From Serratia ficaria (lineage in GTDB: Bacteria > Pseudomonadota > Gammaproteobacteria > Enterobacterales > Enterobacteriaceae), in assembly GCF_900187015.1 (NCBI RefSeq), contig NZ_LT906479.1, positions 2,046,001 through 2,110,000 on the forward strand: 64,000 bases of DNA. Reading direction: 5' to 3'. The notes below the pieces were generated by a model that saw only the letters and a list, made by a program, of their open reading frames with translations, was not told the DNA's origin and did not search any database. Of the stretch, positions 6,770 through 56,678 are shown in pieces. A program made the position numbers and the translations under genes. Each line of letters starts with the position of its first letter. Positions within the stretch are counted from its first letter, which is position 1.

Positions 6770-7729
6770 ATGAAAACGAACAATCCGGCAGTACAATTAA
6801 TCACGATTTCTGACGACGAAGCCGGTCAGAGAATCGACAACTTTCTGCTCGCTCGCCTGAAAGGCGTGCCGAAGAGCATGATTTATCGCATCGTGCGCAA
6901 AGGCGAGGTGCGGGTAAATAAAGGACGCATCAAGGCGGAATACAAGCTGGCGGCGGGCGACGTGGTGCGCGTGCCGCCGGTGCGGGTGGCCGAGCGCGAA
7001 GAGGCGCCGGTCTCCGCCAAGCTCGATAAGGTGGCGGCGCTGGCCGACTGCATTCTGTATGAAGACGATCACCTGCTGATCCTCAACAAGCCCTCGGGCA
7101 CGGCGGTACACGGCGGCAGCGGCCTGAGTTTCGGCGTGATCGAAGGGCTGCGCGCGCTGCGCCCCGAAGCGCGCTTCCTGGAGCTGGTGCACCGGCTGGA
7201 TCGCGATACCTCCGGCGTGCTGCTGGTGGCGAAGAAGCGTTCCGCGCTGCGCTCGCTGCACGAACAGCTGCGGATGAAGGGGATACAGAAGGACTACCTG
7301 GCGCTGGTGCGCGGCCAGTGGCAATCCCACTGCAAGGCGGTGCAGGCGCCGCTGCTGAAAAACATTTTGCAGAGCGGCGAGCGCATCGTGCGCGTCAACA
7401 GCGAAGGCAAACCGTCGGAAACCCGCTTCAAGGTGGAAGAGCGCTATGAATTCGCCACGCTGGTCAAGGCCAGCCCGATCACCGGGCGCACCCACCAGAT
7501 CCGCGTGCATACGCTGCACGCCGGGCATCCGATCGCCTTCGACGATCGCTATGGCGATCGCGAATTCGACCGGCAGTTGGCGAGCACCGGCCTGAAACGC
7601 CTGTTCCTGCACGCCGCGGCGCTGCGTTTTGAACATCCGTCCACCGGCGAAACCCTGCGCGTCGAGGCGCCGATGGATGAAGAACTGCGCCATTGCCTGC
7701 AGGTATTGCGCCGGCAGGCGGTTAAATAA
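6770..7729 (+). CDS. rluC: 23S rRNA pseudouridine synthase (955/2504/2580)
   Basis: RluC makes pseudouridines at 955, 2504 and 2580 of 23S rRNA. The 319-residue protein has an N-terminal S4 RNA-binding domain (about residues 18-80, with [20 protein letters not shown]) and the RluA-type catalytic domain with the HRLDRDTSG motif carrying the catalytic Asp. The start MKTNN was chosen because it aligns with E. coli RluC and gives the same 319-residue length; an upstream in-frame extension is not family-like. It is divergent from rne, as in E. coli. Confidence 0.96.
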
Positions 7730-7738
7730 GCCAGACTA

Positions 7739-8320
7739 CTAGCTCAGCGGGTTGATGCCTTCGGCCCGCAGCATGTCCAGCAACGCGATCAACGGCAGGC
7801 CGATCAACGCATTCGGGTCGCGCCCTTCCAGTTTCTCGAACAACGCAATGCCCAATCCTTCGCTCTTGAAGCTGCCCGCGCAGTTCAGCGGCTGTTCCAG
7901 GCGCACATAGGCGTCGATTTCCGCCTCGCTCAGCGTGCGGAAGTGCACGTGGAACGGCTCGCACAGCGCCTGCAGATGTCGGCTGCGGCCGTTGTACAGC
8001 GCCAGGCCGGTATAAAAGGTGAGGGTCTGGCCGCTGGCCCGGCGCAATTGCGCCCGGGCGTTTTCATCGCTGTGCGGCTTGCCGGTGATTTTGCCGTCGA
8101 TCACGCAGACCTGGTCGGAGCCGATGATCAGGTGGTCGGGATAGGCGATGGCCAGCGCCTGGGCCTTGGCCGCCGCCAGCCGCAGCACCAGCGCCTCGGC
8201 GGTTTCATCGGCCAGCGGGGTTTCGTCCACCTCCGGCGCGGCGCAGGCGAAGGGCAGTTGCAGCTTCTCCAGCAGCATTTTCCGGTAGGGTGAAGTCGAG
8301 GCTAACAGCAATCTCTGCAT
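7739..8320 (-). CDS. yceF: Maf-family nucleotide pyrophosphatase YceF (7-methyl-GTP specific)
   Basis: YceF hydrolyses 7-methyl-GTP to its monophosphate, keeping modified nucleotides out of RNA. The 193-residue protein shows the Maf fold signatures: [10 protein letters not shown] at the N-terminus, VDETP, the IGSDQVC block with the conserved Asp, and the C-terminal IGLPLIAL segment. The start MQRLLLAS was preferred over a 13-residue upstream extension because the family begins at this point. It converges on rluC and is divergent from yceD, matching E. coli order. Confidence 0.94.
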
Positions 8321-8461
8321 AATTTTTTTCGCAAACCATGGCGTAAATAGGTAGGGCATTTTAAACTGTCGGCCGCTGTGGAAGCGAATATTGGTGAAAG
8401 GTGCCGTTTTACGGCCTTTTTCTTTGACTCTACGTCGTTACAAAGTTAATATGCGCGCCCT

Positions 8462-8983
8462 ATGCAAAAGGTAAAATTACCCTTGACCATTGATGCGGTA
8501 CGTACCGCTCAGCGACGCCTGGATTATGCAGGTGTCTATACCCCTGAGCAGGTTACACGTGTCGCCGCCTCCGTGGTCAGTGTGGACAGCGATGTCGATG
8601 CGTCGTTGTCGTTTAATATCGACAACCAACGCCTCGCGGTGATAACAGGGCATGCGGACGTCGCGGTAACGCTGATGTGCCAACGCTGTGGTGTCCCGTT
8701 CGAGCATCATGTTCACACAACATATTGTTTTAGCCCGGTCGTCAATGATGAGCAGGCTGAGGCATTACCGGAAGCGTACGAACCGATCGAAGTCGACGAA
8801 TTTGGCGAAGTCGATCTGTTGGCAATGATTGAAGACGAAATTATTCTTTCACTGCCTGTCGTTCCGGTACATGAATCTGAACACTGTGAAGTGTCCGAAG
8901 CGGACATGGTATTTGGCAAACTGCCTGCAGAGGCGGAGAAACCGAATCCGTTTGCCGTATTAGCCAGTTTAAAGCGTAAGTAA
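8462..8983 (+). CDS. yceD: DUF177-family protein YceD (23S rRNA accumulation)
   Basis: YceD proteins are conserved in bacteria and plants and are linked to 23S rRNA accumulation; the gene is co-transcribed with rpmF almost everywhere. The 173-residue protein includes the DUF177 core with a [12 protein letters not shown] segment (two cysteines, about residues 74-77) and acidic [18 protein letters not shown]. The start [11 protein letters not shown] matches the family. It is 16 bases upstream of rpmF, the head of the fatty acid cluster. Confidence 0.95.
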
Positions 8984-54262: not shown

Positions 54263-54379
54263 CCGCTTGTTCGCCAACAGCTTGCCGGGATCCTGACGTT
54301 CGATACGCATTCACGCCGCATTGATTTCGTCATGAAACTATCACCCGCCCGCCCGGCCGCTGGCAAAAATAGCGCGGTA

Positions 54380-54500
54380 GGCTACTCTTAAAGTGCATGG
54401 CTGAACAAGCCCTGCACTAAATGCCAACTTTTAGCGCACGGCTCTCTCCCAAGAGCCATTTCCCTAGACCGAATATAGGAATCGTATTCGGTCTTTTTTT
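54380..54500 (+). ncRNA. sdsR: Hfq-dependent small RNA SdsR (RyeB)
   Basis: The core TGCCAACTTTTAGCGCACGG, the CTCTCTCCCAAGAG hairpin region and the terminator GACCGAATA / TATTCGGTC with a T7 tail are almost the same as recalled E. coli SdsR, and yebY is the neighbour in both. A sigma-S-like -10 (CTACTCT, 54382-54388) puts the RNA start near 54395-54399, giving about 103 bases. SdsR is a stationary-phase RNA that represses ompD and mutS in relatives; an antisense partner SraC/RyeA may exist on the other strand. The annotated span includes the promoter -10. Confidence 0.9.
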
Positions 54501-54715
54501 GTGTATTAAGGGGATGCCGGTAGCACTGCGCTATTATCCTTACACCGGCTTTCGGGTGATCAAGGTAAACGAGACGATGCCGACTTATGTCTAAACACTG
54601 TGTCGGCTTTCCGTCTATCCCCCCTTGCGGCGGGGCGTGATATCACAACTCAGGGCGGCGAACTGACGCGTTTGTCGCACAACCGCCATGCCATTCCTTT
54701 TATAACGGTGTGACC

Positions 54716-54883
54716 TCAATACACATCATCATACTCTTTGGGTTTTCTTCTCATCACGTATTGAGTGAGCGCCGTAAGTATGACGGAGTTTATAACCCAG
54801 ATGAAAACAGCAAGATCGCCGAGAAAATGACTTAGCAGCAACATCGGGCTCATAAGAATGAGATAACCGATTAAACATTTCAT
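54716..54883 (-). CDS. Putative 55-residue membrane protein
   Basis: The ORF starts MKCLIGYLILMSPMLLLSHF, continues through a hydrophobic stretch (GDLAVFIWVINSVILTAL) and ends with a charged tail YVMRRKPKEYDDVY. Two short membrane spans (about residues 3-20 and 23-41) are likely. The ribosome site is weak (GTGGGA about 7 bases away). It lies on the opposite strand to sdsR. No family recognised; it may be a small envelope protein or not expressed. Confidence 0.5.
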   Translation of the reverse strand: MKCLIGYLILMSPMLLLSHFLGDLAVFIWVINSVILTALTQYVMRRKPKEYDDVY

Positions 54884-56050: not shown

Positions 56051-56269
56051 CTATTTATCTTTTCTGTTGAATTTATCTACGAAATAAAATTTAAGCAGCA
56101 GATGAATCATTCGAATAATACTGCCGATAAACACCAGGGTTATGACAAAGTTCGATAAGTTCCTCGGCGCGGCGTAGGCCTGCGGGAAAGCCACATGGGC
56201 GCCGCTGAGCAATGAGGTCGCAATTAAAAAACCCATTAAATAACAGAGAGCGCGAAAAAGTTGAAACAT
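56051..56269 (-). CDS. Small two-span membrane protein, putative microcin immunity protein
   Basis: This 72-residue protein has two hydrophobic segments (about residues 6-24 and 40-59) joined by a short polar loop and a basic tail (KFNRKDK). An ATG 5 bases after GGTGG was chosen; a GTG three codons earlier is also possible. It lies 67 bases downstream of a gene whose product resembles class II microcin precursors, in the same direction. Immunity proteins for such microcins are small membrane proteins of this kind. No sequence family was recognised, so immunity is inferred from context. Confidence 0.5.
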   Translation of the reverse strand: MFQLFRALCYLMGFLIATSLLSGAHVAFPQAYAAPRNLSNFVITLVFIGSIIRMIHLLLKFYFVDKFNRKDK

Positions 56270-56287
56270 TCGGTCCACCGTAAAATG

Positions 56288-56320
56288 AAAGCATAAGTTG
56301 CGCGGAACAACTTATGCTTT
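56288..56320. terminator. Strong hairpin between microcin-like gene and membrane gene
   Basis: AAAGCATAAGTTG and CAACTTATGCTTT form a perfect 13-bp stem with a 7-base loop, 17 bases beyond the microcin-like stop codon. Minus-strand downstream bases are CATTTTAC, a weak T-run, so it may be a partial terminator or attenuator. Confidence 0.7.
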
Positions 56321-56336
56321 TAGTCAATCAATCAGC

Positions 56337-56678
56337 TTAGCGGGAGCAGCTGCCGGACTTGCCGCTGTTGCAGCTGCCGTTAGACTTATTGCCGCCTTTA
56401 CCCATTCCGACATTACCGCCGCCGCTGCGGCCATCCTTAAAGCATCCGCCATTGAGCGCGCCGGCGGCCATGCCAAGCGGCCCCGCCAACGATCCGCTAA
56501 TGATGCCGTTAACGCAGTCAGGCGAGGTGTGCTTACCATAGAAGCCTTTGCCGTCGGCAGCCGAACCTTTCTTGCCCTGTTTGCCGGCGTTATTGACTCT
56601 ACCGCAGCCGTCGCGTTTATCGGCAAAGTTGCCGGCGCCGGCGATCAGATGAAAATATTTGGCATCGATCTCTTGCAT
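56337..56678 (-). CDS. Candidate class IIb microcin precursor
   Basis: This 113-residue protein begins MQEIDAKYFHLIAGA followed by GNFAD. The first 15 residues fit the leader of MccE492-type microcins (MREISQKDLNLAFGA then G), including length and Gly-Ala before the cleavage point. The rest is Gly/Ser/Asn-rich with a hydrophobic GxxxG-like core (about residues 58-78, NGIISGSLAGPLGMAAGALNG) and a Gly/Ser/Lys C-terminus. It has five cysteines (25, 55, 79, 103, 111) and ends in Arg, unlike the Ser-rich end used for siderophore attachment. GAGGGA lies 6 bases before the ATG. No export or tailoring genes are adjacent. A structural or non-microcin role is possible. Confidence 0.6.
   Translation of the reverse strand: MQEIDAKYFHLIAGAGNFADKRDGCGRVNNAGKQGKKGSAADGKGFYGKHTSPDCVNGIISGSLAGPLGMAAGALNGGCFKDGRSGGGNVGMGKGGNKSNGSCNSGKSGSCSR

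Follow-up and report, generated by a model that had tools for sequence, protein, structure and literature searches.

A candidate class II microcin gene and its putative immunity gene in Serratia ficaria

The window considered here, the whole 64,000-nucleotide stretch of Serratia ficaria DNA that was analysed, carries on its minus strand a pair of small genes with the following features.

56337..56678 (read 56678->56337), minus strand: candidate microcin precursor gene, 113 amino acids, with an ATG start
56634..56678, minus strand: leader of the double-glycine type (Gly-Ala), residues 1-15, supported by alignment and by the lowest dN of all parts in three same-site comparisons
56442..56516, minus strand: hydrophobic, Gly-patterned core, residues 55-79, between the invariant Cys55 and Cys79
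56288..56320, minus strand: intergenic hairpin with a short U-run after the stem, found by folding
56051..56269 (read 56269->56051), minus strand: candidate immunity protein gene, 72 amino acids, with two predicted transmembrane helices

The 72-residue ORF begins 67 nt past the stop codon of the peptide gene, which itself has a good ribosome-binding context, with AAAGAGGGAATCTT before its ATG. The pair is flanked by zinT, convergent with it, and upstream by a gene of the DUF4136 family (Pfam/NCBIfam), and neither of its own products has a match in Pfam or NCBIfam at E <= 1. A preliminary description of this locus had recorded a Gly/Ser-rich peptide with a hydrophobic glycine core, five cysteines and a C-terminal Arg, followed on the same strand by a 72-residue two-span gene, and all of these are present, the cysteines being Cys25, Cys55, Cys79, Cys103 and Cys111. 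A chance ORF was considered and rejected, since intact homologues align in frame and the peptide bears the marks of purifying selection. A consensus scan of the window returned three promoter and four terminator sites, where shuffled sequences gave 1.6 and 2.0 on average. Nearby, the overlapping antisense sRNAs SraC/RyeA and SdsR/RyeB (Rfam) are located at 54357-54504, and a 55-residue hydrophobic ORF, possibly encoding a small membrane protein, lies between this sRNA locus and zinT (54716-54883, minus strand).

The hairpin between the two genes, described earlier as a perfect 13-bp stem that could limit read-through, comprises 13 Watson-Crick pairs plus one G-U pair around a loop of 5, with a folding energy of -19.4 kcal/mol (z = -2.9). 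None of 200 shuffles was as stable, a control that applies to the window only. The stem is as described, and it may limit read-through, although the consensus terminator scan of the window did not flag it and the U-run after the stem is short. Among 15 stretches folded after the peptide stop, eight gaps fold into a hairpin at -17 kcal/mol or below and five fold weakly (-3 to -7 kcal/mol), while L046 and L052 gave longer stretches that are not comparable with the other 13 gaps. The hairpin could possibly act as a partial terminator or as a stabiliser of the mRNA end.

The first 15 residues of the peptide, MQEIDAKYFHLIAGA, are followed by Gly and form a leader of the double-glycine type (GG or GA), in keeping with the length of about 15-18 residues required of class II microcins. 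Beyond it come a polar stretch rich in Gly, Asn and Lys, the hydrophobic Gly-patterned segment from Cys55 to Cys79, and a Gly/Ser tail that carries Cys103 and Cys111 and ends in Arg. The predicted mature peptide has 98 residues, a mass of about 9.4 kDa and a pI of 9.7, with Gly, Ser and Asn accounting for 48% of its residues; AlphaFold gives it no confident fold (pLDDT 45.5). A leader-like pattern matched only the 113-residue peptide among 538 ATG-started ORFs of 40-160 residues in the window, and none of 365 ORFs in three further regions of the genome, but as it was composed post hoc from the family and is narrow enough to miss the GG-leader peptide of another locus of this genome (L038), it serves as a sanity check only. 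A search of the window's genome with TIGR01847, a generic leader model, gave no hit.

Fourteen intact peptides, those of the window and of 13 chosen relatives, were aligned, with the omission of broken or core-less sequences (P0010-P0016, L051), a near-duplicate (L049) and close relatives (P0003-P0006, P0009). The leader closes with GG or GA in all 13 relatives, and there is little or no variation at leader Gly14, Cys55, Cys79, the final Cys-Ser and most of the GGGNVGMGKGGNK block. Four cysteines, one pair bracketing the core and the other in the tail, are common to all 14 rows, Cys25 is peculiar to the peptide of the window, and the C-terminus reads CSR or CSW throughout. Pfam, applied to all of these rows, returned three families with one member each (E 0.085-0.6). 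Across the wider family, comprised of MQEI, MKVI, MKTI and METV types, the letters of the leader vary more than those of the core, with the pattern and the GG or GA end being kept. The MQEI..GA type sits at the same chromosomal site, as fabV and other flanking genes are common to L043, L051, L053 and L054, and the core-less peptide of L051 has a leader end that reads GG; the MKVI/MKTI/MEIV/METV..GG types are found at other sites. A protein search gave 15 clusters including the query, of which eight carry an organism name, in each case Serratia, and no homologue in that search bears the name of a bacteriocin.

In three pairwise comparisons between same-site relatives, the 15 codons of the leader have a dN of 0.028 against a dS of 0.26-0.44, and the core a dN of 0.15-0.23 against a dS of 1.25-1.45, with the dN of the polar linker reaching 0.45-0.74. 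By these estimates, the peptide is under purifying selection among its same-site relatives. The preliminary description had staked its reading on a conserved leader and on the lack of a known family covering the protein; the leader pattern is indeed kept and is the slowest-changing part among same-site relatives, and Pfam and NCBIfam offer no such family.

The two spans of the 72-residue protein are supported by hydropathy, and AlphaFold places its main helices at residues 2-23 and 36-62 with moderate confidence (pLDDT 69.4, pTM 0.40). The signature of its family is LLSGAGV...YxAPxNLS. A word search with this protein returned one near-identical cluster only; a six-frame search found more, namely 18 places in 15 of 30 Serratia genomes. 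The peptide occupies 16 places in 14 of the same 30 genomes, that of G024 being a core-less remnant of residues 1-36. Immediately downstream of 14 of these 16 places lies a match to the 72-residue protein of the window, as judged by comparing coordinates by hand, and at L046 and L052, the remaining two, the downstream protein is a more divergent relative from this family, across gaps of about 170 nt. The linkage on which the earlier reading also depended is thus found at every peptide place, in 14 of the 30 Serratia genomes. In its presence, size and two spans, the adjacent small membrane protein corresponds to that of class II microcin systems, and it is a candidate for the immunity role.

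The class II microcin set consists of precursor, immunity protein, PCAT, membrane fusion protein (MFP) and TolC, as given in the available text of PMC9746304, and the four of these five parts that were looked for (precursor, immunity, PCAT and MFP) are all found by sequence. In three of 14 fetched relative loci (L041, L044, L045), the pair is convergent to, and abuts, HlyD-type and C39-peptidase ABC genes; the remaining 11 have none of this kind in the 10 kb fetched. The genome of the window has two C39 ABC genes, at L037 and L038. At the former (G000:C1 2513332-2516708), 410,654 bp (about 0.41 Mb) from the window peptide, a gene for an HlyD-type membrane fusion protein such as class II systems have (7333-8601) adjoins that of a 716-residue PCAT with the Pfam domains Peptidase_C39, ABC_membrane and ABC_tran. 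Motif position identifies Cys41, His114 and Asp130 as the residues of a catalytic C39 PCAT, as in class II systems, and their spacing is that of the catalytic Cys32, His105 and Asp121 of CvaB (available text of PMC9746304). Identity to the exporters of the peptide-linked clusters is 41-42% for the L037 PCAT and 25-26% for the C39 ABC protein of L038.

Two narrow pattern scans found no GG-leader ORF beside L037 in the 18 kb fetched; these patterns miss the DUF4762 peptide of L038, which leaves room for an unusual substrate. The L037 type is found in a syntenic locus in seven of eight other genomes fetched, L068 being of another type. Just upstream of the syntenic exporter in G017 (L069:2200-2562) is a 120-residue GG-leader peptide that contains Cys, is Gly-rich and Gly-zipper-like, ends in TCNW and has no NCBIfam match, and the L037-type exporter does therefore adjoin microcin-like peptides. 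All 14 genomes with the peptide have PCAT-like proteins, as opposed to 8 of 16 without it (Fisher P = 0.0027), a value that ignores relatedness and depends on calls by identity and length (at least 41% identity, near full length), the cut-off having been set after the list was seen and the broken pieces in G025 counted as absent. Five peptide-bearing genomes (G000, which is the window's own, G005, G006, G007 and G018) have only a PCAT type of 41-43% identity, unlinked to the peptide. An exporter on a plasmid of S. marcescens ATCC 13880 has insertion sequences and hypothetical proteins as its neighbours.

Other peptides and exporters were seen in the course of this search. Around the second C39 ABC gene of the genome, at L038:3072-11755 (about 4.224-4.233 Mb), Pfam identifies a DUF4762 peptide, which has a GG leader, and a DsbA-like thioredoxin; further genes there resemble MacA, MacB and TolC relatives by eye, and together these look like a separate peptide export cluster. 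In another Serratia genome, two GG-leader peptides composed mostly of Gly and Asn adjoin an HlyD/PCAT pair (L068:7677-8276).

The same pair of peptide and 72-residue protein is present in Ewingella americana (L061). A sample of 394 genomes of the order yielded two matches, one in the window's own genome and one, with stops inside, in another genus of the same taxonomic family; none was found in the plasmid records searched for the peptide. Flanking genes have a dS of about 0.3-0.65 compared to 1.1-1.25 for the peptide (zinT, compared with one locus only, has 0.95), and for the immunity gene one comparison gives a dS of 1.74, with saturation in the four others. The cassette has therefore diverged more than its flanks, which would most simply be explained by exchange through recombination.

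Intact copies of the peptide exist in the genus Serratia, and there are also five places where the immunity gene has no intact peptide beside it. No peptide remnant is seen at L042, and no peptide gene is seen either in the 700 nt upstream of an orphan immunity relative in the window's own genome (L039:5351-5554, about 2.665 Mb). At L055, the upstream frame is peptide-like in its leader and end and is broken by a stop in the leader, with no significant tblastn match; at L056 (700 nt upstream of 4968, minus strand), a truncated peptide that ends after the leader region precedes two successive immunity-like frames; and at L051, the short core-less peptide lies beside the immunity gene. Five clusters (P0010-P0014) are frameshifted in the same Gly-rich tract, which suggests recurrent loss or slippage, and P0015 and P0016 are core-less, with sequencing error as a further possibility for these clusters. 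This pattern of decay suits a costly toxin accompanied by a useful immunity gene.

Of the preliminary description, the microcin-type peptide with its leader and the membrane protein beside it in the immunity position are supported, and the placement in class IIb with MccE492 was not borne out. A siderophore-microcin of this type would enter its target through catecholate siderophore receptors after C-terminal modification. The leader length and Gly-Ala of the window peptide, which match the MccE492 type, speak for such an assignment, together with the Gly/Ser-rich tail and the weak core scores of two relatives against NF051486, the E492_microcin model of NCBIfam (E 0.088 and 0.18; 13.4 and 12.4 bits against a cut-off of 50). 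The C-terminal Gly/Ser motif of class IIb is terminated by a siderophore-carrying serine, whereas the tail in the window contains Cys and ends Cys-Ser-Arg, in a family with four shared cysteines. At E <= 1, NF051486 has no match in the window peptide or its genome, though it scores over the cut-off in 7 of 30 Serratia genomes, a result by which class IIb was tested and not supported; in 14 control genomes, it is over the cut-off in none and below it in five. The neighbours, scanned locally for IIb modification genes of the MchC/MceC type, gave the names zinT and DUF4136. The available text of PMC13101503 likewise describes a canonical IIb C-terminus in none of 93 S. marcescens microcins. A siderophore-microcin is thus most improbable, and the earlier prediction of a product in iron-poor culture fluid therefore has no special basis. 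Separately, E492-group matches are present at L073, L074 and L075 (G008, G017 and G004), where the two complete ones end in PDSSN and that of G004 is a broken 68-residue ORF.

The very high glycine content, the Gly-patterned core and the Gly, Ser and Asn of the mature part would also suit a C39-exported signal, or a two-peptide or surface-attached glycine-zipper killing system such as Caulobacter CdzC/CdzD, rather than a single diffusible microcin. This is improbable in view of the two-span protein of one family that adjoins the peptide places, and of the persistence of two-span genes at the five places where the peptide is lost or broken, as would be expected of immunity and not of a signal. 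Moreover, a scan for a second Gly-rich GG-leader ORF, which covered 6 kb of the window as well as 20 fetched loci, turned up only this family; it requires a ribosome-binding site and at least 15% Gly and may miss others. A somewhat more serious prospect, though still an unlikely one, is that the pair in this strain is a silent or decaying relic kept only for its immunity gene: no exporter lies beside it, and there are relatives in which the immunity gene is intact but the peptide beside it is truncated, frameshifted or gone. Yet both genes of the window are intact, the peptide has a good start site, purifying selection acts on those intact peptides that were compared, and the genome encodes a matching exporter.

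The reading preferred here, which we hold with considerable confidence, is that the pair encodes a microcin of class II, but not of IIb, together with its immunity protein, as a further member of a class already known in Serratia, and on the sequence evidence the pair is real and probably functional as antibacterial peptide and immunity protein. A C39-peptidase ABC exporter of the CvaB type would recognise the leader of the precursor and cut behind Gly-Ala. The product, a basic, Gly-rich peptide of 98 residues that is probably disulfide-bonded, would leave the cell through this exporter together with an HlyD-type fusion protein and, presumably, TolC. In the strain of the window, the unlinked HlyD/PCAT locus about 0.41 Mb away would most likely be used. 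We infer that the Gly-patterned core between Cys55 and Cys79 damages the inner membrane of related bacteria, with the tail from Cys103 to Cys111 serving as the receptor-binding end, and that the two-span protein would be made from the same transcript or from an attenuated one and would protect the producer.

The analysis yields a concrete antibacterial candidate together with a candidate immunity gene and a probable exporter. Leader, core, tail and immunity protein lend themselves to alignment across Serratia and Ewingella. For the 10 verified class II immunity proteins, by contrast, the available text of PMC9746304 reports no obvious mutual sequence similarity; as those of the present family can be aligned, their specificity could be mapped by comparison. 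The linked and unlinked exporters bear on whether one exporter serves several microcins in trans, and the immunity-only loci on whether Serratia strains keep immunity against their neighbours.

Among known systems, the closest likeness by description is to the class II microcins of S. marcescens, found in 96% of 1,621 assemblies, where tests of 40 among the 93 sequences showed 17 to be active (Parker et al. 2026, March; PMC13101503, available text). These share a double-glycine leader, an adjacent small immunity protein and PCAT/MFP export, they likewise lack the canonical IIb end, and some are encoded away from the main cluster, as in one strain with two microcins elsewhere in the genome than the exporter cluster; most strains also have several class II microcins per genome. 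The likeness rests on description, as the available parts of that text give no sequences to compare, and a text search for five motifs of the present family gave no match among the papers searched. The family is perhaps a distinct subgroup within the Serratia class II microcins. A bolder proposal, for which the odds seem somewhat short of even, is a class II subclass of its own outside IIa and IIb, so far in Serratia and Ewingella, in which a mobile two-gene cassette relies on exporters in trans and in many cases persists only as its immunity gene; its features would be a mature Gly/Asn-rich peptide of about 100 residues, a Cys-bracketed Gly-patterned membrane core, a CSR or CSW tail with two more Cys and one immunity family.

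As in class IIa (MccV, L, N, PDI and S), there are a GG or GA leader, putative export of the CvaA/CvaB type and a candidate membrane immunity protein, and disulfides are the only modification known of that class in the available texts (PMC13101503; PMC9746304). The present family differs, as compared by description, in having no Pfam or NCBIfam match and a mature part of 98 residues rich in Gly, Asn and Ser with four shared cysteines. Class IIb (E492, H47, M, I47 and G492) has a similar Gly-rich hydrophobic core, but the window peptide is unmatched by NF051486, has no serine end, and shares four cysteines with its relatives, and none of the neighbours examined is named as a modification gene. 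Caulobacter CdzC/CdzD (available text of PMC5380434) is, like the predicted product of this locus, a Gly-rich antibacterial protein of a Gram-negative bacterium; that system is comprised of two proteins and acts at the cell surface through contact, whereas the Serratia locus encodes one peptide and a candidate immunity protein.
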